64,000 bases of DNA from Pyropia yezoensis (Eukaryota > Rhodophyta > Bangiophyceae > Bangiales > Bangiaceae): contig CM020619.1 of NCBI GenBank assembly GCA_009829735.1, positions 25,941,554 through 26,005,553 on the forward strand. The letters are read 5' to 3'. The notes below the pieces were generated by a model. That model was not told where the DNA came from and searched no databases. It was given only the letters and a program-made list of their open reading frames with translations. Positions 12,904 to 53,980 of this stretch are shown here, one piece after another. Each line of letters begins with the position of its first letter. Position 1 is the stretch's first letter. Position numbers and translations under genes: made by a program.

Positions 12904-12905
12904 TT

Positions 12906-12923: not shown

Positions 12924-13022
12924 CAGAGGTAAACTTTACCTCCGGGTGCACCCGGGTGTAGGGGGCCCTCTGTCTCAGAGGAACGGTGGACTTGGACCGT
13001 GTCATACGGATCGTCAGCCAAC

Positions 13023-14969
13023 ATGGCTAGTTCGGACCCCCCGTCGTCCGGGGAGTACACGGGTGACGCACGTACTTCAGTGCCTTTGAATACTGGTGAG
13101 ACACAGGTGGGTTTACCTGGGGTCGCAGAGGGACTAGAGGTCCCTCAAGCCAGCAGGACTGGAAGTGCGGGCGGGCAACAGGCCACCCCGACTCAGTCGG
13201 GAGTTCACTCGGGTGACCCTTCTGATGCGGATGGGCCGAAGTCTGGCCACCGTGTGGTATACTCAACGGGAACGTCCCAAGGGGTGAGGACTGTCCCCGC
13301 GGGTTCCACTCGGGTTGGAGCCAACTTTGGCTTGGAGCAGTCGCCAACAAGGCTTTCGGAGGACGGCGGACCTCCGTTGGTCGGCGATGGGCTCGCGCCC
13401 ATGCCCCCGGTTGAGACCCCTGAGGAACGTGGTTACCCCTCAGGTGGACTCCCGGGGGCGGACCGAGACTCAACTGGAGTCGTCAATCCACTCCTCGCGG
13501 AAACTGTCCGTCGGGAGGCGACCAATGTGTTGCGGCAGACTTTGCCGGACCTGGTGGTGACGATGACAAATACCATTCTGAATCAGATTGTGGCGAGTTT
13601 GCCAGATGGCCTTAATGTCCAGACCGGATTGGGGCTTTCGAGCCCGCAGGCGCCGGGGGAATCCCCCCTCACGCCTATCTCGGGTCGCCCCGAACTGGGG
13701 GCGACACCTGTGACTCCCAACGAGGGAGCCACACCATACTCGGTGGGGCGTACGCCCTTCATGGGGGAGTTCCCCCCGGAAACGCCGGCGGCTACACCAA
13801 GCGCGTCGTGCCGGATTACAGGCACTGAGGGTGAACTTACCCCAGTGCCACAGCGGCTGTTCCCTCAACGTGGGCTGCCGCCCAAGATCCAGGTAGCCAA
13901 CCCGGTCTACCAGAGGATTTTCGACTGTGAGACCTACGCCCTCCACAACAAGTCGGTGGTGTATGGTCCTGACCAGGCCCGAGCCATGGGCCGTGCCAAG
14001 TAGAATGCACTTCATTCTTTTGGGCACAAAGCGGAGTGGGACGGAACTCCCCCCCTCCGTGTCTTTGAGTTCCTACGTCGTTTCACAAAAGCCTGTGACG
14101 ACAATGCCATAAGTGAAGGCATGGCTTTTTACATGCTACAGGAGTTTACGAAGGGCGACCTGCGGACAGAACTTATGTCCGTCATGCCAAGCTCCTCAAG
14201 TGGAGGCGCTGGGGAGGTGACGTCCTATTTGGAGCTCGTCAACTGGTTTTTGAGAGCCATGGTTGATGAGGCAGCGTTGGCTTCTCAAGTCGAGGAGTTT
14301 ACGCAAGCCCATCAAGAAGAGGCGGAGGACGAGTTGTCCTTTGCGGAGCGAGTCCGTAAGCTCAACAATCTTTGTGGGTTTCTTCATCCACAAGCCGTGG
14401 CGAAGAGTCGGTTTGTGGAGGGACTCCATTGGTCAGTCCGGATGGAGACCCGGGAGCATAACACTGCCCGGGCGACCCTGGCCGAGTTGGCTAGGTTCAC
14501 CTACCGCAGAGGCGAGGCCTACCGCAAGTTGCGGGAGGAACAACGCCAGGAGCGTCAGGCCGAGTTGGCCAAGGAACGTGAGGAGGCGCGCCAGGCTAGA
14601 GAGTTGAGAGAGGCACGCCAAATCCGCAAGGAGAGGGTGGTAGCTGCCGTGGGAACTTCCCAGGGTATCTCTTCGTCTTCCCAAGTAGGGAAGCCCCCTC
14701 CGGGAACTGACAATCGGTGTTGGAACTGCAACTCCGATGGACACTGGGCATATGATTGCCCCAAGTTGAGTAAACGCATCCAACAACTTGTTAGGAATGC
14801 GAGTAAGAAGTCGGCTACGAACGAAGTACGTTCACGCCGCGAGGGTGGGTCTCAACCGGTCGTGGCGGTCGCTACACCCTCGGCGGAGGAGGCGGACACG
14901 TCGTCCTCGGACTCGTCGTCTTCCTCCCCGCCCTCAGATTCGGACGCCAAGTCGGCGGGAAACGAATGA
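13023..14969 (+). pseudogene. gag: gag of El-1, split by one in-frame TAG
   Basis: Starts at ATG 13023 (MASSDPPSSGEYTG), 23 codons shorter than nothing upstream that has an ATG. The first part is a long Pro/Gly/Thr-rich region, followed by the capsid-like segment alignable with the Gags of El-2 and El-3 (EFLRRFTKACDDNAISEG here, AFLRRFVKACNDNDVSEG in El-2). A CCHC zinc knuckle CWNCNSDGHWAYDC lies near 14720, then an acidic Ser-rich tail. A TAG at 14001-14003 interrupts the frame; sequence on both sides is in the same frame and continues the homology, so it is a single nonsense change or an unproven readthrough site. The stop TGA (14967-14969) overlaps the pol ATG. Confidence 0.85.
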
Positions 14970-15002
14970 CCGTTGGAGCTGGCCGTCCGAAGCTCACAAC
15001 GG
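14957..15002 (+). promoter_or_regulatory. -1 ribosomal frameshift signal at the El-1 gag/pol junction
   Basis: GGGAAAC at 14957-14963 lies in the G GGA AAC register of gag. A 6-nt spacer follows, then a stem: CCGTTG at 14970-14975 with CAACGG at 14997-15002, and GAGCT with AGCTC inside, leaving a 10-nt loop and one bulged A. Pol is in the -1 frame. This is the standard layout of a slippery heptamer, spacer and stem-loop. An overlapping ATGA would also permit reinitiation. Confidence 0.75.
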
Positions 15003-18000
15003 CAGCCTCGGCCAAGTGGGCCAAGAGGACGAACGAACCGTGCCGGATACTGCGGCGACCTAAGGGAGTCCGCCCACCTCGGGTAGGACTCCCCAAGAAC
15101 GTAAACCCACGTCGGGTCATCGCGGTGCTGACGGGTGAGAACTTCCAGGAGGCTGGACGGGTGCAACTTGCCCCCGGCCGCGCCTGTTGTGCCCGTATCG
15201 TACTTGATACCGGGTCAGGAGCCTCCTTGATACGCGAGTCGCTATTACCAAAGGAGGTGAAGCTCCAACGCTGGAGGTCCAAGGCTGACCATATGATTGA
15301 CATCAATGGTGGGGTACTTCCCATCGTTGGTGCCGTGACCCTACCAACTAGGTTGGGGACCCATGAGGTCGACGTGACCTATGGTGTAGTTGAGAATATA
15401 TCGGTACCCCTGCTTCTGGGTACCCCTTATGCCGTTACACAAGTGCCTTTGATTTGTGGCCCTGAGTACTGGGTCAAGTTGATGAATGGGGAGACTATCC
15501 CCATCCTTGGTAAGGGAAAGTCTGTGGCTCCTGTGACAGTCTCACAGTCGAAGCCTGTTTGCTCTGTGAGGGAAGGGTTTACTGCTACCCTGCGTTTAGC
15601 CCGTAAAGTCACGTTGCCCCCCAACTCGGTGGCGCACGTGGACGTTGTAACTGATTATACGGGGAACGGGTTGGTGCACCCTCACCCCCGTCTTGCTCGC
15701 AAGCACCAAGTGCATGTTGCCCTTGGCACGATGGACTCCAAAGCCGGAGTCCCGTGGAGGATACAGGTGATGAACCTGAGCTCGTCGCCCCAGTACTTCA
15801 AGTCGGGAGCCAAGTTCGGCTATATCGACCAACACGAGGGACCGGTAGTAGCGGTCACCCTCAACGCGGGCGCAAGTAGCGACCCGAAGTCCGGAAAGGA
15901 GAAGCACCAAGCCAAGACGGCCGCCTCTCCTCGGCCCCATGTGAACATGGAGGGTGTTCCACCCAGGTTGAGGGTTCAAGTTGAACGCCTCTTGGACCAA
16001 TATCACAAGTTGTGGGATGGTCAATTGGGACTCATGAGAGCTACCCAACACCGGATCGAGTTGAAGCCCGGTGCACCCCCTATACGCCAACAACCGTATA
16101 GGGGAGGACCCCGTTCAAGGGCCCTCGTTAAGGAGCAAGTTGCTCGCATGGAGGCCCTCGATGTGATCGAGGCCAGTAACGCCGAGTGGGCGAGTCCGGT
16201 GGTTATCGTCCCCAAAGTTGATGGGACCCCCCGGTTCTGTATCGACTACCGTAAGCTCAACGAGAGCACCGTGAAGGACAGTTATCCCCTACCTAGGATG
16301 GACGACTGTCTGGACTCTCTGGGGGAGGCGAACGTGTTCTCTACCCTGGACTGTAACGCGGGGTACTGGCAAATTCCCATTGCCCCGGACGACAGGCATA
16401 AAACTACCTTTACCTGTCACTGTGGTACCTATCAGTGCAAGCGTCTACCGTTTGGTCTGTGTAACGCGCCGGCAACTTTCCAGCGCGCTATGGACATGAT
16501 TCTGGCCGGAGTACGGTGGCAGATCTGTCTCGTGTACCTAGACGATATCATTGTGTTCTCCCGAAGTCCGGAGGAACACATTGGCCATCTTGGCCAGGTG
16601 TTCAAGCTACTTGCTGACGCCGGTGTGTCACTGAAGGCGAGTAAGTGCCACCTCTTCACTCAAGAGGTGGAATACTTGGGACATGTTGTCCGTCCGGGGC
16701 GTCTCAGTGTCAACGAGAAAAACTTGAGGGCCATCCGTAAGGCTCAGTACCCCCGGACCCAGACCCAGATGAGGAGCTTCCTCGGGATGTGTAACGTGTA
16801 CCGACGTTTCACCAAGGGCTTCGCCAAGGTGACGAAGCCATTGAATGAGCTAGTGAGCTCAACGCTACCGAAGAACCTGCCTCCCCCAAGTCGGGTGGAG
16901 CAGGAATCCTTTGAGACTCTTCGGGACCTTCTGCTGAAGCCCCCCATCTTGGCTATTCCCAGGTTGGGAGGCCACTACATCCTGGATGTGGACGCTAGAT
17001 ACGACCAACTTGGTTGTGTGTTGCTTCAGCAGCAGCCGGACAAGGAGTACTTGCCGGTGGGATACTTCAGTAAGGGGCTGAACTCGGCCGAGAAGAACTA
17101 CGGAGTCACCGAGTTGGAAGGACTCGCAGTGGTGTGGGCGGTGACGTCACTTCGTCACTACCTAGAGGGTGAGAAGTTCGTCATCCGCTGTGACCACCGC
17201 GCGTTTCAGTTCATCTTCAAGACGGACTGTACGAACACTCGTCTCAACCGGTGGAGGGTGCGACTAGCACCCTTCAACTTTGATATTGAGTACCGACCTG
17301 GCAGGCAACATGCCCTGGCCGACGGCCTCTCTCGGGTACCTACCGAGGGGCTGGACACTACCCCAGTCGATGAGGACATCCCCATCGTGGGGGTAGTCAC
17401 GCGCTCGGGTCAGGCGTTGAACCCCGAGGCCCCAGGGAACAAGAAGTACTTGCCTGTAGCAATATGGTTGGCCGTATTGTAACCCTAATATTAGGGGGGC
17501 TACTTCTAACCCTTAACTTTCAATTTGATAGTTCGTACTGGTCACGGTATCTACAAGTTACGTATGAGCAGAGGGACTTGCATCTTGGGGTGGAGGGTAG
17601 TTAGTAGTGTCTCCGAGGGTTTATAACGTGGGGGCCGGCGGCGAATCCACCGCCGTCCAAGGTAGAACAACAGACCCCTCCCATTTGGGCTCCCATCTTG
17701 GTCCCGTGGCTTGCGCTCCAAGGACAGCAACCTTGGCCTCCCGGTGACGTTGGTGCCGATCCCCCTTAGTGAGTGTTCCCTGAGAGTGGACGTGCGACGG
17801 ATCCCTATTGTGCTACATTGCCCCTGTCCCTGGACGAGGTGGTGAAGGCCCAGGCCGAGGATCCCTTCTGCAAGTCGCAGAGGGATACCCTGGATACAGT
17901 GGTTGAGACGCGCTTCTTTCTGGGAGACGATGGCCTCCTCATGAGGAGGGGGGTATTCCAGGGGACTGAACAACTTGTCGTCCCCGCATCCCTCAAGGAC

Positions 18001-18815
18001 AGTATCCTTGAGAGGGAGCACAACGCTCCCACGGGTGGACACCTGGGGTCTAGTAAACTGTACCAGACCCTGAGGACCAGGTCCTACTGGCCGTCCATGG
18101 TGGTGGACATCTACAGTTGGGTGGCTGCCTGCACAAGCTGTGCACAGAACCGTCTGATGGAACGGCGGCCTAGTACGGCTATGCTCTTGTTCCCGGCCAA
18201 GAGCCCTTCGCCGCGTTGGCGATGGACATCCTTGGGCCACTGCCAGTGACCGAGGAGGGCAACCAGTACCTCCTGGTCATCTCTGACCGCTTCACGAAAC
18301 TTACGCGAGCGATCCCACTGGCGGAGATCACGGCCATGTCGGTCGTGTCAGCCTTCCTAGATCACTGGGTTGCCGCGTATGGCATCCCGGATAGTACACT
18401 ATCGGACAATGGACCGCAATTTGCGTCTGTACCGTTTCAGGGAGTGCTGGATATGTTGGGGGTTAAGGCAAACTATGCCACCCCCTACCACCCACAAACT
18501 AATGGGCAGGTGGAGCGCTTCAACAAAACTATTGTTAGGCAGTTGCGCCACTATGTGAGTGAGCACGTGAAGACGTGGGACCAATACATTTCTATTCTTA
18601 CTACTGCCTACAATTCACAGGTTCACTCATCTACCGGGGAAGTACCCCTCGCTTTTGTGACCCCCCGTCGGGTGCGGTCTATTGCTGTGCGGCGGCCGCT
18701 TCCAACTAGGGAGGATGGTGGCAGGACGCCTACTCCTACTGAGAGTAAGGCGGAGTTCGCTGCTAGGCTTGAAAACCTCATCCCTAAAGTCAGGGCTGAG
18801 ATGGACAAAGCACAA
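14963..18815 (+). pseudogene. pol: pol of El-1 (protease, RT, RNase H, integrase), interrupted
   Basis: Polyprotein of a chromovirus-type element. Protease active site LDTGSGASLI near 15210; RT with FCIDYRKLN near 16240 and the catalytic box YLDD near 16540; RNase H DVDARYDQ near 16990; integrase zinc-binding HxxxH...CTSCAQNR region 18020-18150, then DDE core MDILGPLP, SDNGPQFAS and NGQVERFN. A solo LTR (17455-17817) with its target duplication interrupts the linker between RNase H and integrase. A one-base deletion near 18200 shifts the frame just before the first integrase aspartate. The coding sequence ends at about 18815 where the element is cut off. Non-functional in this copy. Confidence 0.9.
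17455..17817 (-). mobile_element. Solo LTR of the El-3 family inserted into El-1 pol
   Basis: A 363-bp sequence, reverse complement of the El-3 LTRs and the same length, bounded by TGTAGC...GCTACA. It is flanked by the 5-bp direct repeat TTGCC at 17450-17454 and 17818-17822, the target duplication. This is the expected product of insertion followed by LTR-LTR recombination, and shows the El-3 family moved after El-1 had inserted. Confidence 0.95.
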
Positions 18816-20565
18816 AAGCCTCCGACGGGTTTCCAGTGAGACTCAGGCCCTCCACGTGCACGCGCGCGCACACGAGGCGCATCACCTTCTCGTTCAGCTT
18901 CTTGTAGTACCTCTGCACGCCGGTGGCCTCCCGCAGCACCCGCGCAGGGAGGCCCTCCATCGGCATCTCGACGTCGACGCGATCCATCCGCGCCTGGAAG
19001 TTGGCCGTCACGACAGCAAAAAACTCCTTGCTGTTCTGGTCCGTACCTACCACGGCATCCTCAGACGTCTCGAGCCACGCAGCGCTCAGCTGTACTCGCT
19101 CGACAGCGGAGTACGGGACCCCGTTGGTGTGGACGCGAGGTCCCACTCCATCTCGAGAGCCCGCCTCGCCGCCTCCACGGCCGCGTCCTCGGCCGCGCAG
19201 AGGGCCGCTTCGCCCGGCACGGCCGCGTCGCCCTGCGCCAGGATTGGTGCGCGCGCCGGCGGCTGCTGCTGCGGCCTCTGCTGAGGGATCCCCATCGCCG
19301 TCGGTGAGGCCGTCGTCGGCCCCGACGTCAAGGCGGCCTCCACTTCGCGAGGGCCGCCGCCCGCCTCGTGCACCTCCATGGGCGCCGCGTCCGCGGGGGG
19401 CTCTAGCCGCGCGGCCGCGAGCCGGGCCGCGCGGGGGGACGGTGTAATCTGTTCTGCTGCTGCCGGGGCTGGCGGCGCCGCTGCCGTCGCTGGCGTAGCC
19501 AAAGGAGCGGCCGCTGGGGCTGCCACCAAGGGAGCTGCGGCCGCTCGGCCCCCCTCCCCGATTGGATGGGGGGGAGAACATGGCCGTGTGGTCTGCGATG
19601 GCCCCCCCCACCCACGCGGGCTCAGCGGCCGCAGCTGGGCTTGGTCGTTGCCGCCTCTTGGCCCCGCCCACCCACGCGGGCTCGGCGGCCGCGGCAGGAC
19701 TTGGTCGTTGCCCCCGCTTGGCCCCCCCCACCCGCGCGGGCTGAGCGGCCGCCGCTGGGCTTGGTCTTTGCTCCGGCTCGGCCCCGCCCACCCGCGCGGG
19801 CTCGGCGGCCGCGGCTGGGCTTGGTCGTTGTCCCCGCTTGGCCCCCCACACCTAGGCGGGCTCAGCGGCCGCCGCTTGGCTTGGTCGTTGCCCCGGCTCG
19901 GCCCCGCCCACCCACGCGGGCTCGGCGGCCGCTGGTCGTGTCCGGCGTAGCCGGCCGCCCCGGCCGGGCCACCGCAACGCGGCGGCCCCGTCCACCGACG
20001 TGGGCTTGGCGGCCGCTCCCAGTCCAGGTTCTGCGGCTGCGGCTGTGCTGCCCACGGACAGCGGCAGGTCCAGCGGCACAGACCGTGCTGTGGCCCCGCG
20101 CGGTCCGCCAGGCGAAACTGCCAGCACAGCCGCCGAAAGCCTCGGCGCCGTTGCGTTCTCGTCGGCTCCGTCACGCACCCCCACCACCGGTTCACTGGCT
20201 CTCCTGGCGGAGGCCGAGCCGCCCACGGGCAGCCGCACGTCCAGTGGCACAAAGCAAACTCGGGCATCGTGATTTGGGCACGCCGACAACGTGCACAAAG
20301 CCGCCGACAGCCGCGACGCCGCTGGTCCTTGCTTATCTTCCGTGGGGGCGGCCCGCCTCCCGGTGGCGGCCGCCCCCCCCCCCCCCCCCCCCCCCCCCAG
20401 CGCCTCGTCTACCCCAACTCGCCCCAGAACGGCGCTGATCCCCGCCCCGGTTGGCGTGGCTGACGCACATTGCGCTCGCTCGAGGGAAAAGGCGGTACGG
20501 GAGAGGACAGGCAGCCCAACAGAAAGGGGAAAGGGGTGTCGCGGGGGCCGACTTGCGGCCCGCAA
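18816..20565 (-). pseudogene. SANT/Myb-like DNA-binding protein remnant with 20-residue tandem repeats
   Basis: On the minus strand one frame runs from about 20565 to 18816 with a single TAG at 19852-19854. The N-terminal part has two related segments (VCFVPLDVRLPVGG and ARSVPLDLPLSVGS). It is followed by 20-residue repeats rich in Pro and Ala, and then an RG-rich stretch. The C-terminal part resembles the SANT/Myb-like domain found with PIF/Harbinger-type elements and in plant and oomycete GST-T3-like proteins: AWLETSEDAVVGTDQ, an FF..V...F segment, RYYKKLNEKVMRLV and TGNPSEA. The reading stops at the El-1 break point, so the rest is missing. Family assignment rests on motif pattern only. 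Confidence 0.5.
19601..19930. repeat. 60-bp GC-rich tandem repeat
   Basis: Five to six copies of a 60-bp unit with the core GCGGGCTCGGCGGCCGC followed by GGCTTGGTCGTTG. The length is a multiple of three, so every copy encodes the same 20-residue unit in the SANT-like frame. One copy (near 19850) has CTAGGC where others have GCGCGG, which creates the TAG. Confidence 0.9.
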
Positions 20566-23191: not shown

Positions 23192-23764
23192 TGTGGTATA
23201 AAACTCGATCCTCTCAGACACGTGTCAATATCCCTCGGGGGAAAGGGACAGGTAACGCAGAAAGGGGAACTACGAGAATGGTATGCCTGTTGCCTCACGT
23301 GCCTGCTCGCAGGGCAAACAGATACGCACGGTAGTGCACACGGGGAAGAGGAAAGCAAACGCGCAGTTGTCTTTTTCCCTGAGGGCGCGGGCCGAGGGCG
23401 CCTCGCTGTCCCTCTTAACGTGCATCTGGGGGAACCCCGGCACGTTGGCCCGGTAGCCCCCCCCATAACCCCGAGTGGCCCCGACCCGAGTCTAACCTCG
23501 TCAGGTCGGGGGCCACTATCACTACTAATTCTATTCCCACTCACTAATCTCACACTCAAATTCTCTCAAATCAAGTCCCTCACAAATATGCAAAAACACA
23601 TCAGAAATCCCTCTCTCGCGTGTGGATAGCGTAGTCCACCGCATCCCAGTGCCGGGCACGGGCCACGGCCGCCAACCATCGCCACACGGCGGGCGTGTTC
23701 TGGCACCTGGTGCCCTCTGGTTGCAGTCCCGGGTCGGCGCCAAGTCGGGGCCAGGGATGCTACA
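23192..23764 (-). repeat. 3' LTR of El-2
   Basis: 573 bp, bounded TGT...ACA in either orientation. On the plus strand it begins TGTGGTATAAAAC. It differs from the 5' LTR at one site. Confidence 0.97.
23197..23203 (+). promoter_or_regulatory. TATAAAA at the outer edge of the El-2 LTR, antisense to gag-pol
   Basis: A consensus TATA box on the plus strand, six bases inside the LTR border; the same motif occurs in the other LTR at 32282-32288. From the left LTR, transcription would run into the antisense gene at 23956. From the right LTR it would leave the element toward the gene at 33163. Promoter activity is inferred, not shown. Confidence 0.45.
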
Positions 23765-23776
23765 TAGCTCCCTCCC
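23765..23776 (-). other. Polypurine tract of El-2
   Basis: On the minus strand AGGGAGGGAGCTA immediately precedes the 3' LTR, in the position needed to prime plus-strand DNA synthesis. Confidence 0.75.
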
Positions 23777-23955
23777 TAGTCCGGCACGTCCTCGGGCCGA
23801 ACCAGGTGCCACCGTGCACAGCCTCGAGCACGTCCACACCGGTGCCGAGGTCGAGCGTCTTCACCCCGGTCACGATCACCTGCCCCGATTCTGCCCCCCC
23901 CCCCCCCCCTCCGCTCCTTCACCTTGGCCCTCTCGTTCCCCGGAGTCTGGACGGT

Positions 23956-26073
23956 ATGTCCAGTTCCGAGATCCAGGCTGGGCCCGTGGTTCCGGCGGCG
24001 AGTGTTGTGGAGGAGAACTCGGGTAGTCGCGCCCCTCTCCTGCCTCCGGTTCCTCGGATGTCGGTGCCGGCGCCGGTCGCTACGGCGGGGACGGATCGAG
24101 TTCCCCCGGCTTCCGCGATGCACCCGGTCGAGGCCCCCCCGGAGGGTCTCCCGGAGATGCTCCTTGGGCAGGACCCTCTGGCGGCCCGGCGTTACTCCAC
24201 GGTGGTCGGCAACGCCGGCGCGGCCCAGTGCCAGCAGGATTGCATGGACCTCTGGCGCAAGGAACTCCAGCGCGGGGTCTTGACCGAGATGGACAAGGCA
24301 CGTCTTCATACGGCGGACCAGATGCGCCTGGCACAAGACCGCTCCCAGAGCTTCTCGGGTTCCTCTTGGGTTGCTCGTCTGGAGGATCTCCCCTTCGCGC
24401 TGGTACTGGATCTACCCTTGACCGAGCGTCGCGTGTACGCGTCCGTTCTCCGGTGGCCGGAGGAGGAAGGGTACGTCCACCGGGCGCTCAAGGTCTGGGA
24501 CGAGGCGCTCAAGGGGTCGGGAAGCTTGAACTGCGACCCCCGTCCGAGCATGGTCGCTCTGGAGCCGCCTTTCTTGACCCGGAAATACTCCAAGTTGTCG
24601 CCGGCACGGGAGCAGGGTGAGCGACGCGGGCGTCAGCGTGACTTCCTTGTGAGCTGCAACCACCAGGAGTTCTGGAAGCTGGACAAGGCTAACCGGGCGG
24701 CATACTACCCCAAGGTCATCCCGCAGCAGCAGGAAGTCGAGATCCCGGTCGGGTTTGCTCCTTCCAGCATCCCTTGCACCTGGTACTTCTTGGACGCCTT
24801 GACTCAGGCGTCGATCAAGGGCTTCTTCCATTCAATCCCGTACATGATGTACACGTCCGAGATGACAGTCTTGGCGGCCAACCACTGGCTTCATGAGGTC
24901 TTGGTGTCCAACCGGCTTTGGTTTCTCCCTGACCTCCTGATGGTCTGGATTGTCGACAAGTTGACCGTCGACTTCCTGTGCAGCCAGGACGAGGAGTACA
25001 AGGAGCTCTTCCAGGCGATGATCGACTTCCGGCGTCTGGTGCCGGTGCATGACCGGAACTTCTTGAACGCGATTGCCGACCAGAACCGCCCGCGTCGGGA
25101 TGGCTTCGGTTGGGCGCAGGTGGTCTACCAGTCTTCTCCGGCCAAGGTGCAGCTGGCGACGCCGCTTCCGGCGTGGCCGCAGCTAGGTAGCTTTCCTGCT
25201 CCGGCCGCTCTTGATCTTCTGCCAGTTGGGCCGCCGGTGCAGGAGTCGGGATGGGCCGCGGCGGTCGGTCGGGCGTCTGCGGCGGCTCCGCTTCCTCCGG
25301 TTGCCCCTGTCGCCCCGGTCGCCTCGCCTGAACCGTCACCGGCACGTCCGCGCCCTGTTCCGGCTGTGCCAGTACTTCAAGCTCCTCCGGCACCGCGCTT
25401 GTCTGCGGCGAGTCTGGGAGTGGCCGTGCGGTCGCCGATTACTCCGGCCGCTCTACCCCGGACGCCTTCTTCCAACGCCGGCGGCGCGGTGCCTCCGCTG
25501 GAGTTGGGTACTCCGGTCTCGGGGGCCGTTGTGGACCGTCCGGTAGTGTCATCCTCGGGCCGGTTCGAGATTCCGGCGCCGACTCTGCGCCTTACCCGCT
25601 TCCGGGTGCCTGACTGGTACCTGAACCAAGGTGGTCCAACATGCGACCAGTACGACGTCGGCATGATTGAAGACCAGCTGGGTCGTCTTCCGGTGCAGGT
25701 TGAAGGCGTCGGGTCCTCCCTGGTGATGGGCACCTACGCCAGTGTCTTGAACGACGTGGTCGACCGGGTGTTTGCTTGCGCGGACAGCGGCCAGATGTCG
25801 AACAACCCGGTGGTTGGCGAACTTCTGACGACTTTGACGCGGCATGGCTTGGCCCAGCAGTGGTCAGAGACCTTCACGGGCTTCCAGCGGCGCCGACGGA
25901 CATATCTGGATGAGCGGGAGCCACCGGCAACTACTGGTACTACTCCGATGGCGTCATACCGGGATGCGCCGCGTCCACCGCACTACGTCATCCCGTCTTC
26001 CTCCGGTTCCCGTCGTACCGCGGGGGCAGCGCCGGAGGACACTCCCTCGGCTCAGCGTCCGCGCCGAGAGTAG
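23956..26073 (+). CDS. Antisense gene of El-2 (705 residues, unknown function)
   Basis: An uninterrupted plus-strand frame between the 3' LTR and the 3' end of pol, converging on pol with 145 bp between the stops. ATG 23956 opens MSSSEIQAGPVVPAA. Residues about 70-400 look globular, with motifs such as LVLDLPLTERRVYASVLRW, EFWKLDKANRAAYYPK and WFLPDLLMVWIVDKL; about 410-535 is Pro/Ala/Val-rich; about 535-650 is helical with LNDVVDRVFACAD and QQWSETFTGFQRR. No zinc knuckle, protease, polymerase, signal peptide or clear membrane anchor, so it is neither Gag nor Env-like. The C-terminal helical part resembles that of the antisense gene in El-3. Antisense genes in this position are known from some plant Ty3/gypsy elements; homology to those was not seen. 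Confidence 0.75.
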   Translation: MSSSEIQAGPVVPAASVVEENSGSRAPLLPPVPRMSVPAPVATAGTDRVPPASAMHPVEAPPEGLPEMLLGQDPLAARRYSTVVGNAGAAQCQQDCMDLWRKELQRGVLTEMDKARLHTADQMRLAQDRSQSFSGSSWVARLEDLPFALVLDLPLTERRVYASVLRWPEEEGYVHRALKVWDEALKGSGSLNCDPRPSMVALEPPFLTRKYSKLSPAREQGERRGRQRDFLVSCNHQEFWKLDKANRAAYYPKVIPQQQEVEIPVGFAPSSIPCTWYFLDALTQASIKGFFHSIPYMMYTSEMTVLAANHWLHEVLVSNRLWFLPDLLMVWIVDKLTVDFLCSQDEEYKELFQAMIDFRRLVPVHDRNFLNAIADQNRPRRDGFGWAQVVYQSSPAKVQLATPLPAWPQLGSFPAPAALDLLPVGPPVQESGWAAAVGRASAAAPLPPVAPVAPVASPEPSPARPRPVPAVPVLQAPPAPRLSAASLGVAVRSPITPAALPRTPSSNAGGAVPPLELGTPVSGAVVDRPVVSSSGRFEIPAPTLRLTRFRVPDWYLNQGGPTCDQYDVGMIEDQLGRLPVQVEGVGSSLVMGTYASVLNDVVDRVFACADSGQMSNNPVVGELLTTLTRHGLAQQWSETFTGFQRRRRTYLDEREPPATTGTTPMASYRDAPRPPHYVIPSSSGSRRTAGAAPEDTPSAQRPRRE

Positions 26074-26218
26074 TAGTTGGAGGCAAGGAGGGTGAGGGTC
26101 TTGGGAGAAGCGAGGAGGGAAGAGGCGGAGAGAAGGGTTGCTCGAGCGGGTGCTTGGTTTCCTTGATTGTTCCATGCTTGCATTGCGTGTTCTCCTTGAT
26201 ATACCCGTTCCCTTCTTC

Positions 26219-29200
26219 TCAATCCTCTTGTTCCGCATCCGTTGCGGGTGAGCTCGTCTCGTCCCGAGGGTCTTGGTTGGCCCCGTCCTCTTGGTCCTCC
26301 TCCGTGTCCGCCTCCAGAATCTTGCCGGCTCTGGCCACGGGAGTGCCCTCAATCCCGTTCCGTCGCGTGTAGGCACAGACGTCCGCGATGGGTAGCCGGT
26401 TTGAGGGTTCCCATGTATCATCTGCCGGTTTGAAACCGAACCAGCGTACTCGCAGGTACAGGCGTCCATCTCTCCAGGCATGGTCGACAAACTTGACGTA
26501 GACAAATTCCCGACCTTCTTCTTGGGATAGCCAGGGTATCGCAGTCCGCTTACGCCGGGTCAAGTCCCGTTGGCTTGGCGGTGGAGCTCGGGTGACATGG
26601 TCGCTGCTCACCCGGTACGGAGAGCCATCCACGTCTAGAAGGAAGGTCCAGCCATCCGTATTGAGAATCTCATAAGGTCCATCCGTCTTAGAGTCCAGCT
26701 TCCCCCGGGTCTTGCTATGGTTGTCCACAAAAACCCAGTCGCCACCACCCAGTTCCTTGTTCTTTTCCCGGACACCCTTGTCATAGTCCCGCTTGTATCG
26801 CTCCTGGGTCTTTGAAATTGACTCCTTGACTCTTGGGAGCAGGAGCTTTAGTTGTTCCAGGAACTCATCCTTTGCCTTGGGACCTGACTTCAGTGCAGGC
26901 TGGAGACCATCCGGTATTCTTTCCAGGGAGAAGTTGGTCAGCCGCCTCGGGGTGACAAAGTCGAGTGGAGCGACTCCCGTTGTCCGGTGAACTCGGGAGT
27001 TGTAGGCTAGAGTGAGGACAGCCAGGAGCTCGTCCCAGTCTTCTTGGTGCTCCTCCACGTAGTGCCGTAGCATGTCCACTAGGGTCCGGTTGAATCGTTC
27101 CACCTGGCCGTTCGTTTGAGGGTGGTACGTCGTGGTGTACAAGTTCTTGATGCCCATCAGGTCACAGACTCCTTGGAAGAACAGGGATGCAAACTGGGGA
27201 CCGTTGTCGGTTAAGACGGAGTCTGGAGGGCCGTAGGCAGCTATCCAGTACTCGCAGAAGGCCGACGTGACATCCAGAGCCGTGATGGTTCTCAACGGGA
27301 TTGCTCGAGTGAACTTGGAGAACCGGTCACAAATGATGAGCAGGTATATGTTGCCACTGGAGGTCTCAGGTAGGGGCCCCAGGATGTCCATGCTTAAGCT
27401 TGCAAAGGGCTCCGCCGCAGGGAATAGGCGTAGCTTAGAAGTCTTCTTCCTCTGGGACAACCGGTTCCTTGCACAAGAAATACAAGCCTCCAGGCACTTA
27501 TGGACGTCACTGGCCATGGTTTCCCAGTAATAATGTCGTCTCATGGAAGCATACATCCGATTGATACCAGGATGCCCGGCCTGGGGAGACGAGTGCTCCA
27601 GGCGTAAGATGTCAGTCCGTAGGCTCCGGGGTACGTAGACTTGAGTTGCCCCATCGAAGGGTGACACCCGTACCAGGAGTCCGTCTGTAGACTCGGAGAA
27701 GCGACTGTTCCGGTTCAGGTCCATTTGGTGGCGAAGCTCCAAGCATTGAGGGTCCGTCAATTGTGCCTCCAGCATCCGGTGAATGGTTACCGGTTGATGA
27801 GCGTCAGGTGTCTCGTACAGGGGAGCGTGCCAGCCACGTCCGACATTCGGGAGGATGAAGCAAGGTATTTCCTCCGGGATAGGACCGGTATCGGCTGCAG
27901 GAGTCTCCAGCCGGGACATGGTGTCGGCGCAGTGGTGCTCCCTCCCTGCTCTGGTGCACACCTTGTACTTGAACTCCGAAAGGCGTAGGCGCCACCGGGC
28001 GACCCTTCCTTGACTGCTGTCCATGCATAGCAGCCACCTTAGACTGGCGTGGTCCGTCCGGATGAGGAACTCTTGTCCTTCAAGATATGGACGTAACAGG
28101 AAGCAAGCCCAGACGACCGCCAAGCACTCGCGCTCGGTCGTGGAATAGTTCTTCTCGGCTGGAGTCAAGACGCGACTGTAGTAGCCTATCGGGAGGAAGT
28201 GCCCATCAGGTTGCTGCTGGAGTAGTGAGCACCCCACCTGGACGCCACAGGCGTCAGTCTCCAGAACAAACTGACCCTCCCGCTTGGGTAACGCCAGTAC
28301 TGGAGTGGTGGTCAGGCGCTTCTTGAGCTCTTCGAAGGCTGCTGTCTGCTTCTCGTCGAACACCGGGAGTTGTGCTGGAAGCTTCTTGCTAGTAAGCTTG
28401 GTCAAGGGCCGGGCAATCAGAGCGTAGTCTCGTACGAACCGGCGGTAGACGTTGCACATACCCAGGAAGCTCTTGAGTTCCGTCTGGGTTTTAGGTTGCC
28501 GTGCATGCCGGAGGGCCTTGATGTTCTTCTCATTGACTCGGAGCTCCCCCGGACTCAGCACGTGCCCCAGGTACTCCACCTCAGTCTCAAACAGGTGGCA
28601 CTTCTCGGCCTTGAGGGTAACTCCAGCCTTGGACAGGAGGGCCAGGACCTCTCGAAGGTGCTCCAGGTGTTCCGCTGGGGTCTTGGAGAAAACAATGATG
28701 TCGTCCAGGTAGACCAAACATGTTCTCCACCTTAGCCCCGACAGGATGATGTCGATGGCTCTCTGGAAGGTTGCCGGAGCATTAGTGAGACCAAAAGGGA
28801 GACGCTTGCACCGGAACAGTCCCATGTGGCACGTGAAGGTAGTCTTGTCCTTGTCCTCGTCAGCCAGAGGGATCTGCCAGTAACCGGCATTACAATCCAG
28901 CGTCGAGAAGAGGGTGGCATCACCAAGAAAGTCGAGGCAATCATCCATCCGGGGTATCGGGTATACATCCTTGACTGTCATCTCGTTCAGGCGTCTGTAG
29001 TCAACGCAGAAACGGAAGTGACCGCCAGGTTTCGGGACGACTACCACCGGGAAAGCCCACTCGCCATCAGACGGCTCGATAACATCCATCTTGAGCATCT
29101 TGTTAACCTGCTTCTCAATCTCATCCCGGCGATGAGGTCCAGCCCGGTATGGGTGCATGTGCACTGGTTTGGCATCTGGCTTGAGTTGAATCCGGTGTAG

Positions 29201-30313
29201 GGTGGCGTCCATCTTGCCCAGCTCTCCGGACCACAGGTGCCGATGTTCCTGGAGAAGCTTCTCCAGTGCCTCCTTCAAGTCGAGAGGGACGTTTTCTTGG
29301 TTGACCTTCGGCATCCCGGGCGGTGCTTGTTCGGGCTTCGGAGTAGTACGGCCAGCCTGCTCTTGTTCCGGAGATACGTCTAAGGCCGTCAAGTTGGATG
29401 CCAGCTCTTGTTGCAGGTTGAAGAGGTCTTCCTTGCTCATAGCGCGGGCGGACCCCCGGTAAGGCTCTGCTGTACCAACTCGAGTGCCCTTGGCGAGGGT
29501 TATTGGCTTCCGGCTCACGTTGACGATCAGCACCGAGAACGGGGTGTGCCTCTCCACCTTCTTGTGGTGTCCGTGGGCTAGGTATAATCGGTGTTTCGCC
29601 AGAAATTCCTTGCGTCCGTAGATCAGGCATTGACCTGCAGTCCGGGTCGTGACTTGAACCTTGGTCTCCGAGCGAGGCGGTAGGAGCACCGGTTTGATGA
29701 GGGTCAAGGTAGAGGGTGGGATGCGTTCCTTCTGGTTCTTGGCCACACGAACCTTGGTGTCCAGGTGCTCCAGCACTGGTGACACAAACCCATGGTTGAA
29801 CTGCACCTTTCCTTCTCCGGGTAGGATGCTCTTGACATGCTGCTTCTGGAAGTCCCAGCCTAGGATGAGGGGGACTGATAAGGTCTTGACTACTAGAAAG
29901 GGAAAAAGCATTGGTTCATTGTTGACATAGATGGCGACGGGAAGACGGCCAAGCGGTCGTAGGGTTTGACCTGATGCGTCTACAATCCGGGTCTTGGTAG
30001 GCGCTCTCCAGGCATGTCGACGCCAGCCCGGAGGTAACAGGTTCTCAGTGATGACGCTTGGTCCGGCTCCCGTGTCGACCACCGGCGTAACAGCTTGGGG
30101 GAGGCTATCCCCCACACGCATACGAGCATTAATCTTGAGGTTTTCCTTACGCAGGACGAGCAAGGTCCCCTTGAACAAACAGGGTGTCCAGGCGGCTACC
30201 GGTTCAGCAGGTAACTGCCGTCCTTTCTCCCGGCACGCAAGGGGAGAACAGGTAGAAGTACCCTGCCGTTGGAGATTCGGGAAGACACTTGGGGAGAGCG
30301 CCTGCCCTACTCG
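26219..30313 (-). CDS. pol: pol of El-2 (protease, RT, RNase H, integrase, chromodomain)
   Basis: An intact polyprotein frame, read in -1 relative to gag from codon CGA at 30313; 1364 residues follow the shift site and there is no ATG near the junction. Protease VVDTGAGPSVI near 30085; RT FCVDYRRLNE near 29000 and YLDD near 28705; RNase H ETDACG near 28260; integrase zinc motif ending CISCARNR near 27460, then DDE core MDILGPLPE, LTDNGPQFAS and NGQVERFN; and a C-terminal chromodomain with YLRVRWFGF and DDTWEPSNRL near 26440. The chromodomain suggests chromatin-guided integration. Lacks any stop or frameshift, unlike the other three elements in the window. Confidence 0.96.
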   Translation of the reverse strand, partial: RVGQALSPSVFPNLQRQGTSTCSPLACREKGRQLPAEPVAAWTPCLFKGTLLVLRKENLKINARMRVGDSLPQAVTPVVDTGAGPSVITENLLPPGWRRHAWRAPTKTRIVDASGQTLRPLGRLPVAIYVNNEPMLFPFLVVKTLSVPLILGWDFQKQHVKSILPGEGKVQFNHGFVSPVLEHLDTKVRVAKNQKERIPPSTLTLIKPVLLPPRSETKVQVTTRTAGQCLIYGRKEFLAKHRLYLAHGHHKKVERHTPFSVLIVNVSRKPITLAKGTRVGTAEPYRGSARAMSKEDLFNLQQELASNLTALDVSPEQEQAGRTTPKPEQAPPGMPKVNQENVPLDLKEALEKLLQEHRHLWSGELGKMDATLHRIQLKPDAKPVHMHPYRAGPHRRDEIEKQVNKMLKMDVIEPSDGEWAFPVVVVPKPGGHFRFCVDYRRLNEMTVKDVYPIPRMDDCLDFLGDATLFSTLDCNAGYWQIPLADEDKDKTTFTCHMGLFRCKRLPFGLTNAPATFQRAIDIILSGLRWRTCLVYLDDIIVFSKTPAEHLEHLREVLALLSKAGVTLKAEKCHLFETEVEYLGHVLSPGELRVNEKNIKALRHARQPKTQTELKSFLGMCNVYRRFVRDYALIARPLTKLTSKKLPAQLPVFDEKQTAAFEELKKRLTTTPVLALPKREGQFVLETDACGVQVGCSLLQQQPDGHFLPIGYYSRVLTPAEKNYSTTERECLAVVWACFLLRPYLEGQEFLIRTDHASLRWLLCMDSSQGRVARWRLRLSEFKYKVCTRAGREHHCADTMSRLETPAADTGPIPEEIPCFILPNVGRGWHAPLYETPDAHQPVTIHRMLEAQLTDPQCLELRHQMDLNRNSRFSESTDGLLVRVSPFDGATQVYVPRSLRTDILRLEHSSPQAGHPGINRMYASMRRHYYWETMASDVHKCLEACISCARNRLSQRKKTSKLRLFPAAEPFASLSMDILGPLPETSSGNIYLLIICDRFSKFTRAIPLRTITALDVTSAFCEYWIAAYGPPDSVLTDNGPQFASLFFQGVCDLMGIKNLYTTTYHPQTNGQVERFNRTLVDMLRHYVEEHQEDWDELLAVLTLAYNSRVHRTTGVAPLDFVTPRRLTNFSLERIPDGLQPALKSGPKAKDEFLEQLKLLLPRVKESISKTQERYKRDYDKGVREKNKELGGGDWVFVDNHSKTRGKLDSKTDGPYEILNTDGWTFLLDVDGSPYRVSSDHVTRAPPPSQRDLTRRKRTAIPWLSQEEGREFVYVKFVDHAWRDGRLYLRVRWFGFKPADDTWEPSNRLPIADVCAYTRRNGIEGTPVARAGKILEADTEEDQEDGANQDPRDETSSPATDAEQED

Positions 30314-32067
30314 TTTCCCGGCTCCGAGGAGTCCTTAGAGGTTTCGGTCTCCAGGTCAAAGTCCGTAGGAGCTTCCCTTGCCAGAGCCTCCGTGATGCTC
30401 TGTAAGGTTGCCACTCGGATGGCATGTACCTGTGCCTTGTCCATCTTGGAGGGTGCCCGCCGGTCAGCCCAGTTGACCGCCTTTGCAAACACCAGTCCTT
30501 GACGCTTGAGTTTCTCCTGGAGATCCTCGGGAATGGTCGGGCACTGGTAGGACATATGATCCTCCTTCTGGCACAGCCAGCAAGACCGGAACCGCTGGTT
30601 CCTGATCTGCTTGGGGGCGACCAGGGAAGGTTGCTCCTTAGAAACGAAGCCGCCCCACTTGTCCCTTGACTCCATGGGTGAGGCCTCGCCAACTGCGAGT
30701 ACCGGTACAGGGTTATCACCTCCCTTATACTTGTCGGGTCCGGGACGAACTCGCGACAACGGCTTGGGGGTTGATACCATAGGAGCCTGGAGGGCCTTGG
30801 CTTGCCGGTGCTTGCCCTGGGTATAGGCCATCAACTGCTGGAAGGTATGTTCTTGATGTTCCTGGTTGTAGTTCTCCGCATCCACTTGAAGATATTCAGG
30901 AAGCCCCTCCGAGAAGATCATCTTGAGCCTGTCCTCAGGGTAAACGTTGCCACAAGCATCGCTCATCTCCCGGACACGACGGGCGAACGCCTCTGGAGTC
31001 TCTTGTCTCTCCATGGTTGCCCGGTTCAGCCTACCGACTGCCTTACGCAGGGAGTCCGCGTCTGCGTAGTTGGACAGGAGCCAGTTGACCGCCTCCGGAT
31101 AACTCGCGACGGTACGTCCAACAATGTGCCCGGCAGAGTCTGGTAGAACCTGTGCAAACCGCTGTTCCGCTTCTCCGGTCATGAAGTTAACCAGGAGATA
31201 GAGAGCCTTGCCCTCGGACACATCGTTGTCATTGCATGCCTTGACAAACCGGCGCAGGAAGGCAAAGATAAGCGCCGGTCTCTTCCCGGAAAACTTAGGA
31301 TGTCCCCCAAAGCTCGGCTGCATTCGCCGGTTCAGGGATGCCATCTTCTTGGCCATCTTCCGGGTGTAACCTTGGTCTTGGTTCTCCAGCCGGTAGTTAC
31401 CCCAATACGTGACCTTGTTCAGGGTGGCATCTCCCACTTGGTGGGCAGGGAAGTCGAACTCGACTAGCCTGCGCCGGGTAGGACCGGGAGATGCATCCCA
31501 GTCATATCCCTCCTCAGAGCTGGAGGAACTGGTCTCGCTGGTGCTAGAGCGGCGGCGACGACGCCGACGCCTACGGCTGCTCCGGTCACCGGTCTTGGAG
31601 CTCCCCGCCCCATAGGACGCAAGGGGAGGAAAAGCTTGGCCGGTCCCAGGAGTCGAAGTCTCAGGAAGACCCGTAGAACCAGTCATAGCGGTGCCTCTGG
31701 CACTGCTAGTGCCCACAGGAAGAGGTGTATACACCCAGCTGCCATGTGTGGGTCCAGGAGTAAACACACCAGGGGCTATCCCTGGAGGTTGAAGAGTAGA
31801 ACCGACAGGAGGGAGACGTCTGCTGCGAGCGGACTCAAACGCCGTTGACCCCGGGGTGGCTCCCACAGGAGGAACAGCCGGAGGAACGGGAGCAGGCGGT
31901 ACTTGGCCGCCTGTAGACTCCAATCCACTACCGGATGTCACGCCCAGGTCTGCTTCACCCGTAGGGAGAACGCCGGGTTGGGCACCGTCCCCCGCGGTGA
32001 CCAGGGATGCGTCAAGGGACGCGGGGTCTACCCCTTCGGGCACCGTCGTGCCAGGGAGGGTAGCCAT
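30307..32067 (-). CDS. gag: gag of El-2
   Basis: An intact 586-residue structural protein with start ATG at 32067 (MATLPGTTVPEG). The N-terminal 170 residues are Pro/Gly/Thr-rich, followed by a run of arginines and serines, then a capsid-like helical region (AFLRRFVKACNDNDVSEG, EAVNWLLSNYADADSLRKAV). A CCHC zinc knuckle CWLCQKEDHMSYQC near 30570 should bind RNA. The C-terminus ends EPGNE and stop TAG; the last codons contain the slip heptamer. Homologous to the El-1 and El-3 Gags. Confidence 0.93.
   Translation of the reverse strand: MATLPGTTVPEGVDPASLDASLVTAGDGAQPGVLPTGEADLGVTSGSGLESTGGQVPPAPVPPAVPPVGATPGSTAFESARSRRLPPVGSTLQPPGIAPGVFTPGPTHGSWVYTPLPVGTSSARGTAMTGSTGLPETSTPGTGQAFPPLASYGAGSSKTGDRSSRRRRRRRRRSSTSETSSSSSEEGYDWDASPGPTRRRLVEFDFPAHQVGDATLNKVTYWGNYRLENQDQGYTRKMAKKMASLNRRMQPSFGGHPKFSGKRPALIFAFLRRFVKACNDNDVSEGKALYLLVNFMTGEAEQRFAQVLPDSAGHIVGRTVASYPEAVNWLLSNYADADSLRKAVGRLNRATMERQETPEAFARRVREMSDACGNVYPEDRLKMIFSEGLPEYLQVDAENYNQEHQEHTFQQLMAYTQGKHRQAKALQAPMVSTPKPLSRVRPGPDKYKGGDNPVPVLAVGEASPMESRDKWGGFVSKEQPSLVAPKQIRNQRFRSCWLCQKEDHMSYQCPTIPEDLQEKLKRQGLVFAKAVNWADRRAPSKMDKAQVHAIRVATLQSITEALAREAPTDFDLETETSKDSSEPGNE
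30313..30319 (-). promoter_or_regulatory. Slippery heptamer GGGAAAC at the El-2 gag/pol junction
   Basis: In gag it is read G GGA AAC, followed by GAG TAG. Pol is open in the -1 frame right up to the heptamer, and no ATG occurs in that frame near the junction. Frameshifting is therefore the simplest way to make pol. No strong stem within 5-10 nt was found by eye. Confidence 0.75.
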
Positions 32068-32254
32068 GTTGGTCTCTTGACAGCCACAGTCCAGTTACCT
32101 GCGTGTCCAAAGATCGCAAGACCACAAGAGAGGGGTTGGAGAGCCAGGAATGGGGTTCCCGTGAACGGGTGCAAATAATTCCCAAACCACAGAAAAAGAC
32201 AGAATAGGAACAACGCAACCGCTGCTCCCAAATGTCTCTTCTCAAACACTCCAA

Positions 32255-32272
32255 TCCCCTGCTGCTCCACCA
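32255..32272 (-). other. Primer-binding site of El-2
   Basis: TGGTGGAGCAGCAGGGGA on the minus strand, four bases inside the 5' LTR end and identical to the sites of El-1 and El-3. Confidence 0.8.
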
Positions 32273-32276
32273 AATA

Positions 32277-32849
32277 TGTGGTATAAAACTCGATCCTCTC
32301 AGACACGTGTCAATATCCCTCGGGGGAAAGGGACAGGTAACGCAGAAAGGGGAACTACGAGAATGGTATGCCTGTTGCCTCACGTGCCTGCTCGCAGGGC
32401 AAACAGATACGCACGGTTGTGCACACGGGGAAGAGGAAAGCAAACGCGCAGTTGTCTTTTTCCCTGAGGGCGCGGGCCGAGGGCGCCTCGCTGTCCCTCT
32501 TAACGTGCATCTGGGGGAACCCCGGCACGTTGGCCCGGTAGCCCCCCCCATAACCCCGAGTGGCCCCGACCCGAGTCTAACCTCGTCAGGTCGGGGGCCA
32601 CTATCACTACTAATTCTATTCCCACTCACTAATCTCACACTCAAATTCTCTCAAATCAAGTCCCTCACAAATATGCAAAAACACATCAGAAATCCCTCTC
32701 TCGCGTGTGGATAGCGTAGTCCACCGCATCCCAGTGCCGGGCACGGGCCACGGCCGCCAACCATCGCCACACGGCGGGCGTGTTCTGGCACCTGGTGCCC
32801 TCTGGTTGCAGTCCCGGGTCGGCGCCAAGTCGGGGCCAGGGATGCTACA
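32277..32849 (-). repeat. 5' LTR of El-2
   Basis: 573 bp, one mismatch to the 3' LTR. It should carry the gag-pol promoter, but no clear TATA box was seen in the gag-pol direction. Confidence 0.97.
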
Positions 32850-33162: not shown

Positions 33163-36100
33163 ATGATGTACGTTCCGGTGGTGACACCCGACGGCGCCAC
33201 CGTCTTAGGCGTCTTGGTTGCTCTCGGCTGTCCGCGGACAGTTACTGGCATCGGCGGCCCCCTACCGCCCCAACGTGCAGCCGGTGCCGCCTTTGCGTGG
33301 ACATCATTCATCCCTCGTGGCTGGCTCAACCATTCGGGCTGCGCGTGCCTGTGCGGCACTCGGCCCGCTGGCGTCGTCGCTTCGGCGAGGCGATCGGCGC
33401 TGCATCGTAGGGCATCCCACTCGCATGGCCTGGCTTGGCGGCGTGCGGCATCGGGTGTCCCCACCGCGGTGCCGTCCGTGTCCATGAGTGTGGACACTGT
33501 GGGGGGAACCGACACGGAGCCGCTTCCGATGTACGCGGAGCAGCCCGAGGATCCGGCGTTGGCATCCTACTGGACGCAGACCATCGAGTTGATGAACTTT
33601 GTTGATGACATGTTCCTGATCGTCGAGGAGGCGCTTGAGGCGGGCGACGGCATCAGAATCTCGCACTTCCACAGTCAGGTTGCCAATTTTAAGAGGGTCG
33701 CCACCGTCGCCGTCGATGGCATGCGTGCCGAAACGGCGTCCGTCCTGAGCCAGTGCTCGCGCTTGTCCTCTTGCGCCCTGCCGGCGCTGAAGCTGGTGGT
33801 GCTGTGGAACCGCACCTTCCGGAAGAAAAAGCAAGGCTTGATGCGGATCGTGTCGGCGACTGTGCGATTCAACTGGCGGGAGTTGCCCCCGGCCGAGAGC
33901 GAGCTCCTTGCCCTCACTAAGTCGCTTATGATGGACGTGATCGATCTGCTGGCCGTCTATTCCGCCTCCCTGCTGTCTTTTGAAGAGCACTTGCGGCAGC
34001 TGTTTGCGGGGGACTACCCAGTTGCGGCGATGCTGAACGATCATGGGGCGCTCCTCTCGGCGGGTCGGCAACGCTCTGCGAGCAGTGTGCTAGCGACGTT
34101 CCCGGTAAGGGAGGAGGACCTGGCTATCCCACGCGACGTCGAGGTGGTTCAGACCTGTGCGGACCTGTCAATGCTGAGGCGGCCGAGAGGCACCCGAGCT
34201 GCCTGGTACCTGGTGTCTTCACCGGGCATGGGTAAGACGCACTTCCTGGAGGACTTATCGGTGGTGTGGGGGGCTCTGAGCGACATCCGGTACGCCGAGG
34301 CTGCGGCTCGAGCCAATCTGGCCTCCTGGGAGAACACCGTCTCGAACCTGAAGGGCACCCGCTTGTGCTTTGTGTCGTTCAACGGTGCATCCGTGTGGAG
34401 CGAGTGGGACCAGAAACTCGTGAACGACCTGGCTGCTCATCCAAAGAAGACCTTTCTCCCTCTCTACGTACGTTTGCTGTGGTGCCTGCGCTGTGCGGAG
34501 CGGGACTGGGACTGGTTCGTTGATGAAGTCCATGATCTCCTGGCCGTGAACCCGAGTCTCGTCGACACTATCATCACTGAGGCTGTGCGCACGCTTCGTG
34601 GGAAACCCACTATTGTGGCCATCGAGGAGCTAAACAAGGTGACGCCGTTTCAGTTACCTTTTATCCAGACGAGTCCTGCAGAGCTGGAGTGCGGCCTGAC
34701 CTCGACAGACACCACCAAGTCCCCCGTCTCGCCTCCGGCAACTGCTGATGCAACCCCCTCTGCCTCACTGTTGAACGTGTACCGCCATGAGGTTTGCACC
34801 TGGACAAGGCTCGAGGGCGTCACTGTGCTCCTGACGGCGCCGTTTCCAGGGCTCGTGCTGGCGGAAGTGCGGAAGCTGATGTCCAAGGACCAGAGTGCCG
34901 CTCTCGACACCGAGGTTGCCGAGTTTTTGCGGACAGCGCCGACGAGCTTGGATTTGCAAAACCTGATGCTCACGTCCTTGTCAAGCCGCCGGAAGGGCTC
35001 TCCCTATTTTCTTTTACCCGCTGCCAAGATTGGCTTCCTGGACGTGGACGAGATTGCGGACGTCTACTTCCTTCCCATCTTTCGGGAAGCTTTTGTGATC
35101 CGGACGTCGCATGCGTGGCGGTCGTCGTTCCAGCAGCCCTCCAACCTGTCGGCTCGTGCCTTTGCCAGGCTGAGCTGTGGTCATCCGCGGAGCGCAGCTC
35201 TGTTGCTGCAGATGCTGCGTGAGGTCTCTGCGTCCTGCTCGGTGTGGTCGTCTGTAGTCAAACCTGCTGGCGTCCTCCTGTCGCAGAACCTGTCCCTGTC
35301 CAAGTTACTGTCTGACCTTTTGGTCGTGCCTGCCGTCCTTCTTGCAGCGTTGCACAACTGCACGCTCGACAGCGAGCAGCCGCTGGTCCTGGGCATCATC
35401 GTGCGGGGTTTGACGTTCAAGTCATGGGATGATGTTGTTTCGTACAACGTGCTGGTGGGTGCCGTCCGGGTATCTGACGGCAGGTATGAGAACCCGTGCA
35501 TGCCCCCGCTCTTCCTCGTAGCGCTTATGGCTCAGTGGAAATCTGCACCCTCCATTGAGGTCGGTGCGACTGCTACCGAGTATCTGCGGTTGAAGGGTGT
35601 GTTTGATGCTTTATCCACGATGCTTGACGCCGCCGACAATGGCGGAGCCGCTTCTCGGGTCTGGGAGCTCGTGTCCCTGTATGCAGATGTGGTCATAACG
35701 CGTCTGCGCGCTGCCGCGCCAGCTTGGACAGCCTCGTCGCCGGGTGTGTCACTACCTCACGACTACCGGTCGATCACCCTAATGCAGCTGTACCCAGGGA
35801 GCACGGCCATCTACTCTGCTGGTGAGCGGCCTCTCCTAGACAAGGTTCTTCTCGACGCCGTGCCCGATGCCGTGATGGTCAATGATAGCGAGTCTACGAA
35901 CACAGTCCTCAAGATCCTGGAGCGCGACGCTGTGGAGCTCGCATCTACCGTGTTTAAGTGCGCACCAGAGCATGCTGGCTTCGACTCGATCAAGTTTTTG
36001 CGTCGCAGCTGTGCTGCCGGCAAGGTGAGGAAGGAGGACCTCGTGGCTGTTTGCAAGTCGGCCAAGGTCACCGGAAATGCACGCTCCTACTTGAATCTGA

Positions 36101-53979: not shown

Positions 53980-53980
53980 A

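Follow-up and report, generated by a model that had tools for sequence, protein, structure and literature searches.

We analysed a 64,000-nt stretch (the window) of the genome of the red alga Pyropia yezoensis (assembly GCA_009829735.1, contig CM020619.1, positions 25,941,554-26,005,553 of the forward strand), to which the coordinates below refer. The published description of this genome gives a GC content of 65% and a repeat content of 48%, LTR retrotransposons being the main class (PMC7423979, excerpts). In keeping with a red algal source, one phycobilisome-domain match lies in the largest contig. One of the retrotransposons in the window, denoted El-2, lies on the minus strand and carries, between pol and the 3' LTR, a long open frame that reads against gag and pol. 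The features of El-2 are as follows:

23192-32849, minus: Ty3/gypsy element El-2 (LTR pair, gag and pol)
23192-23764, minus: 3' LTR, 573 bp, directly upstream of the antisense gene (LTR comparison)
23765-23955, plus: leader of 191 bp from the 3' LTR to the antisense ATG (indels of lengths not divisible by 3, 20 copies)
23956-26073, plus: antisense gene, 705 codons from ATG to stop (open frame; codon-level selection, 30 copies)
24553-25041, plus: conserved core, residues about 200-362, also present in the antisense proteins of El-1 and El-3 (comparison with the El-1-family protein by BLASTP and shuffling)
25681-25947, plus: C-terminal region, residues about 576-664, a possible counterpart of the El-3 C-terminus (weak)
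26074-26218, no strand: 145-bp spacer between the convergent stops of the antisense gene and pol (no indels, 20 copies)
26219-30178, minus: pol (protease, RT, RNase H, integrase, weak chromodomain-like match; Pfam)
30307-32067, minus: gag with a weak zinc knuckle (Pfam zf-CCHC, E 0.018, below cut-off; BLASTP to the El-1 and El-3 gags)
32277-32849, minus: 5' LTR (one of 573 sites differs from the 3' LTR)

With gag followed by protease, RT, RNase H and integrase on a single strand, El-2 is a Ty3/gypsy LTR retrotransposon. The Pfam domains of pol are arranged in the order RVP (just below its cut-off), RVT_1, RT_RNaseH, Integrase_H2C2 and rve, and the end of the integrase gave a weak match to the chromodomain PF00385 with an E value of 0.001 and 19.4 bits, below the cut-off of 25.1. 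The LTRs have TG..CA termini, the element is flanked on either side by GACCC, a target-site duplication, and the purine-rich tract AGGGAGGGAG adjoins the 3' LTR on the element strand. El-2 (32240-32276) and El-3 (53945-53980) also have in common a near-identical sequence immediately internal to the 5' LTR, TTGGTGGAGCAGCAGGGGA in El-3, which is likely to be a shared primer-binding site. Adjoining El-2 is a 1078-aa ORF (33163-36399, plus strand) with host-like codon composition and the P-loop SSPGMGKT, for which Pfam and NCBIfam gave no match and PHROGs weak matches only, and which we take to resemble Crinkler/RHS-type P-loop proteins.

The antisense frame is open from a GTG at 23695 (792 aa), has its ATG at 23956 (705 aa) and ends with the stop at 26073. 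Within 23956-26073, it contains no stops, whereas each of the other five frames has 8 to 20 of them and never stays open for more than 207 codons. The coordinates and stop counts thus agree with an earlier note, made from the sequence of the window, that described an uninterrupted frame of 705 residues opposite gag-pol and LTRs that differ at one site. The GC content of about 65% and the young age of the copy, as judged by LTR identity, might be taken to favour a chance open frame, but in none of 1000 order-2 Markov simulations did any of the six frames reach 705 codons (the longest open frame was 585 codons, with a median of 271). Together with the selection and the cross-family homology described below, these simulations refute a chance origin, the probability of which we consider negligible. 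Among 20 copies of El-2, the 191-bp leader shows indels of 1, 3, 5, 6 and 14 bp and the gene itself has no such frame-breaking pattern, so the coding constraint starts at the ATG. At the distal end of the El-2 LTR, the antisense strand reads TATAAAA, which is offered as a lead only. Tandem Repeats Finder detected no arrays in the El-2 region 23192-26300.

A protein search of the P. yezoensis genome with the El-2 antisense protein yielded 57 candidates in 58 rows, the last two rows being pieces of one copy, with 93-100% identity and an internal stop in two rows. The 100-residue core of the protein was found in at least 150 places, with 98-100% identity among the matches listed; 122 of the 150 listed lie in frames of at least 704 codons with no stop in the match, 27 in frames shorter than 700 codons, and a further match is itself interrupted by a stop. 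The gene and pol have the same relative orientation as in the window in all 20 fetched 7-kb copies, the window copy included, a count outside which gene-less copies fall because these copies were found via the antisense gene itself.

Alignment of 30 copies (L009-L038) revealed 322 variable sites of 2118, distributed over codon positions 1, 2 and 3 as 76, 69 and 177. Indels are confined to three 9-bp insertions and one compensated +1/-1 pair, and in L038, where a stretch is missing, the antisense frame is still open. Comparison of the window copy with eight others (L029-L031 and L033-L037; the list omitted L032, L038 and L010-L028) gave Nei-Gojobori dN/dS values of 0.15 to 0.24, well away from 1, and only two of the 30 copies contain an internal stop. 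The proposal of the earlier note that the gene is selected, rather than a mere open frame, is borne out by these values, and the frequent stops named there as a counter-indication are not seen.

When changes in the 30 copies were divided, with the window copy as reference, into those shared among copies and singletons, the shared changes comprised 43 nonsynonymous and 99 synonymous ones (0.19 of the neutral ratio), and the singletons 110 nonsynonymous and 86 synonymous ones (0.57 of neutral), along with two stops. The same division for pol in 20 copies gave 17 and 55 shared changes (0.15 of neutral) and 46 and 55 singletons (0.40 of neutral), again with two stops. This contrast between shared and singleton changes is the pattern of a protein that is needed by the copies that multiply and that drifts after insertion. 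An extra copy adjoining L013 differs from the column majority by 14 synonymous and 8 nonsynonymous changes and has no stop. Because most copies were chosen by protein score, the sample is biased towards conserved ones, a bias that affects the shared-singleton contrast, the search with the core only and the homology across families to a lesser degree or not at all. Thus, purifying selection at the codon level keeps the antisense gene along the multiplying lineages. Six of the 20 copies (L012, L015, L017, L018, L019 and L021) carry single-base indels in pol, four of these copies having many, and none in the antisense gene; the pol indels possibly reflect assembly errors or older damage.

The two other elements of the window belong to different families:

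12435-18836, plus: El-1 remnant (LTR 12435-12903, gag, RT-RNase H, integrase; Pfam, BLASTP)
43549-43911, minus: El-3 3' LTR, 363 bp (12 mismatches to 53981-54343)
44499-46841, plus: El-3 antisense gene, window copy, in the same place as in El-2 (open 44385-46841, ATG 44499)
47397-53761, minus: El-3 gag, protease, RT-RNase H-integrase and integrase end in separate frames (ORFs and Pfam)
53981-54343, minus: El-3 5' LTR (LTR comparison)

The El-3 antisense frame of the window is shifted near its 3' end; all seven other copies that were compared continue to a common terminus, and one further row of the 55 El-3 matches agrees with the window frame to its end. The core of the El-3 protein was found in at least 150 places, with 95-100% identity among the matches listed. 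Those seven other copies of the El-3 gene, two of them identical, show 65 synonymous and 72 nonsynonymous changes and one stop (0.48 of neutral), and single pairs range from 0.24 to 1.22, two young pairs being above 1 (1.04 and 1.22), so that selection is visible in El-3 and is weaker than in El-2. A lone LTR of the El-3 family (17454-17820, 97% identical to El-3, in opposite orientation) separates the RNase H part of El-1 from its integrase part.

The El-1 remnant is cut after the integrase, and the window copy gave no match to the antisense gene of its family, which is known from one fetched sequence, L052. This full-length relative of El-1 has a pol frame of 1380 codons and, antisense to it and 111 bp from the pol stop, an open frame of 724 codons. 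The core of the encoded protein was found in at least 150 places, with 98-100% identity among the matches listed; 22 of the 150 listed are in frames shorter than 700 codons, one more has a stop, and 127 remain. The integrase and the antisense core of this family are 2223 bp apart on opposite strands in four pairs checked by eye. Downstream of the El-1 remnant, at 19539-19958, there are direct repeats with 60-bp spacing, in six register copies that are 60-100% alike.

The El-1-family protein connects the antisense genes of the other two families. BLASTP aligned it with the El-3 protein at E 1.4e-9 and with the El-2 protein at E 1e-7; the scores of 124 and 93, respectively, exceed the maxima of 63 and 70 obtained with 1000 shuffles each, and the El-3 and El-2 antisense frames rank first and second for this protein among all window ORFs of at least 150 aa. 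The direct comparison of El-2 and El-3, in contrast, is too weak to serve as the sole proof of homology: BLASTP gave E 0.04 for a gapped alignment that partly covers a low-complexity stretch, hhalign a probability of 8% (P 0.004), and the C-terminal match, with a score of 47, was reached by 7 of 2000 shuffles and equalled by a low-complexity window of the El-3 protein. The El-1 bridge decides the matter, and sequence comparison demonstrates that the antisense gene is homologous in the three families. The earlier note was right to treat the El-3 gene as the counterpart that makes the case for El-2 strong; the similarity of the two is, however, not clear directly and is linked through the El-1 family alone. 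The RT-bearing frames of the three families are 44-54% identical and the gags 25-30%; the antisense protein diverges about as Gag does, so it probably descends with the element, and the gene would predate the split of the three families.

These data also bear on the idea that the antisense RNA itself is functional, forming double-stranded RNA that tunes the silencing of the element. Such a role has been suggested for plant antisense ORFs (PMC7264820, excerpts), and the convergent layout would produce overlapping transcripts given read-through of either. Nevertheless, the constraint tracks codon positions and the protein similarity spans families, neither of which is predicted by an RNA-only role; as the sole role it is disfavoured and, in our estimate, very unlikely.

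Outside the P. yezoensis genome, close relatives of the antisense proteins were P0003 and P0004, both 97-99% identical (one in each of three protein searches, P0003 in two of them and P0004 in the third, among the candidates listed), and viral contigs contained no match to the antisense protein, with 84 pattern matches lacking a relative. Within the genome, two places with other Ty3 pol families (frames of 1186 and 1255 codons) seem to end soon after pol with no antisense gene, on the basis of 5 kb read per place; one of these, L050, abuts an El-3-like copy that marks its end, and a third place, L051, gave no readable element. Tentatively, then, the gene is not universal among Ty3 families. 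In L049, two frames (247-1308 and 1344-2144, plus strand) that adjoin a short-tailed Ty3 element resemble a DDE transposase.

The frequency of A at third codon positions is 0.06 in the El-2 antisense gene, 0.07 in that of El-3, 0.06 in the ABC frames and 0.10 in the El-1-family frame, compared with 0.13-0.19 in gag and pol. The host-like values of El-2 and El-3 could suggest a captured host gene that became cargo of an ancestral element and was kept for its benefit to the alga or the element. However, there is no homologue outside the elements among the matches listed; a single-copy host relative could lie beyond the first 150, coverage of eukaryotes being uncertain. On balance, we regard host capture as improbable.

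The sequences of the antisense proteins offer few clues. The El-2 protein and the El-3 protein of the window have no match in Pfam (E 0.1) or in PHROGs or NCBIfam (E 1), and the full-frame El-3 protein, the El-2 C-terminus and the El-1-family protein have none in Pfam at E 10; the same Pfam searches found no TRP28 domain (PF04195) in the proteins of any of the three families. All three share a common core and contain 11-12% proline. Two of the three have a basic tail, which in El-1 is rich in R and S; the third, that of El-3, ends in an acidic region (pI 5.3), which means that a basic tail is no general property of these proteins. Five weak matches to solved structures, every one a cytochrome b-c1 Rieske entry (best E 0.0036), involve a proline/alanine-rich stretch and were judged to reflect composition. 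Single-sequence structure predictions were poor (pLDDT 33.6 and 32.0), and the function proposed below therefore rests on analogy. HBZ of HTLV is a bZIP protein, and a retroviral bZIP identity of the El-2 product was rejected for want of a Pfam match.

The position of the gene and the fast evolution of its product between families invite comparison with an envelope-like or other structural protein that came to lie on the opposite strand by chance and aids particle exit or entry. In plant and insect LTR elements, env-like genes do occupy the interval between pol and the 3' LTR but are sense-oriented, some with transmembrane segments (PMC7264820, excerpts); the El-2 gene has neither property, being antisense, and the three proteins examined contain no typical membrane-type hydrophobic stretch (best window 1.54) and no Pfam match. 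An Env role was accordingly rejected, and we would give any structural role of this kind a rather small probability. The earlier note likewise described the frame as having no Gag, Pol or Env features.

Antisense genes in this interval are not without precedent. The plant aORF-3R genes (Silene Retand ORF4, maize Grande gene23 and rice RIRE2) are likewise long and antisense, lie between pol and the 3' LTR and, like the P. yezoensis genes, are present in most copies of a family, are as conserved as other element proteins and have no clear outside relatives (PMC11963269, PMC7264820, excerpts). The P. yezoensis proteins, unlike those of the plant Retand lineage, lack TRP28/PF04195 or any other Pfam domain, and the host is a red alga, whereas among 617 Viridiplantae assemblies, Retand elements occur only in eudicots and monocots (PMC11963269, excerpts). 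The absence of TRP28 fits the expectation of the earlier note that this would be an independent or very divergent case. Its statement that antisense genes are known in a few plant groups holds as well, but the range is wider: a 2020 review adds Boty of the fungus Botrytis cinerea, in which an antisense ORF occupies the same interval, a likeness drawn here by description only (PMC7264820, excerpts). In the excerpts of the open-licence literature at hand, which include the red algal genome papers PMC7423979 and PMC8752119, no red algal antisense gene of this kind is reported.

Taken together, these observations make it quite probable that 23956-26073 is a genuine accessory gene of Ty3/gypsy elements in P. 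yezoensis that is under selection, is homologous in three families and has, via an antisense transcript, a regulatory or nuclear role. Such a role seems the most likely one by analogy with maize Grande gene23, which has a nuclear product and its own promoter (PMC7264820, excerpts), and with retroviral antisense genes. The HTLV genes HBZ and APH-2, expressed from an antisense promoter inside the 3' LTR (PMC11963269, PMC7264820, excerpts), may serve as a model for El-2; the El-2 protein differs from HBZ in having no Pfam domain and belonging to an unrelated lineage. Presumably, transcription starts at a promoter within or next to the 3' LTR and reads toward pol, and the product would act within the life cycle of the element, regulating it or working in the nucleus rather than serving as an envelope. 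It could affect Gag or RNA handling, nuclear import of the integration complex or control of sense transcription, in line with proposals for plant antisense genes such as Grande gene23 and for retroviral antisense genes. We would put at about even the chances of the more specific scenario in which red algal Ty3/gypsy elements evolved an antisense gene independently of flowering plants, fungi and retroviruses, before the split of at least three families, and in which this gene is expressed from the 3' LTR and required for transposition, in the manner of HBZ but with a protein family of its own.

What antisense accessory genes do for LTR elements is an acknowledged puzzle, in flowering plants as well. 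The red algal example, clearly under selection and found in three families, suggests that this layout, with a gene reading from the 3' LTR in the direction opposite to pol, has arisen more than once and fulfils a task for which gag and pol are not suited. With hundreds of copies and three divergent families in nori, the conserved residues of the protein can be mapped and the need for the gene can be tested.
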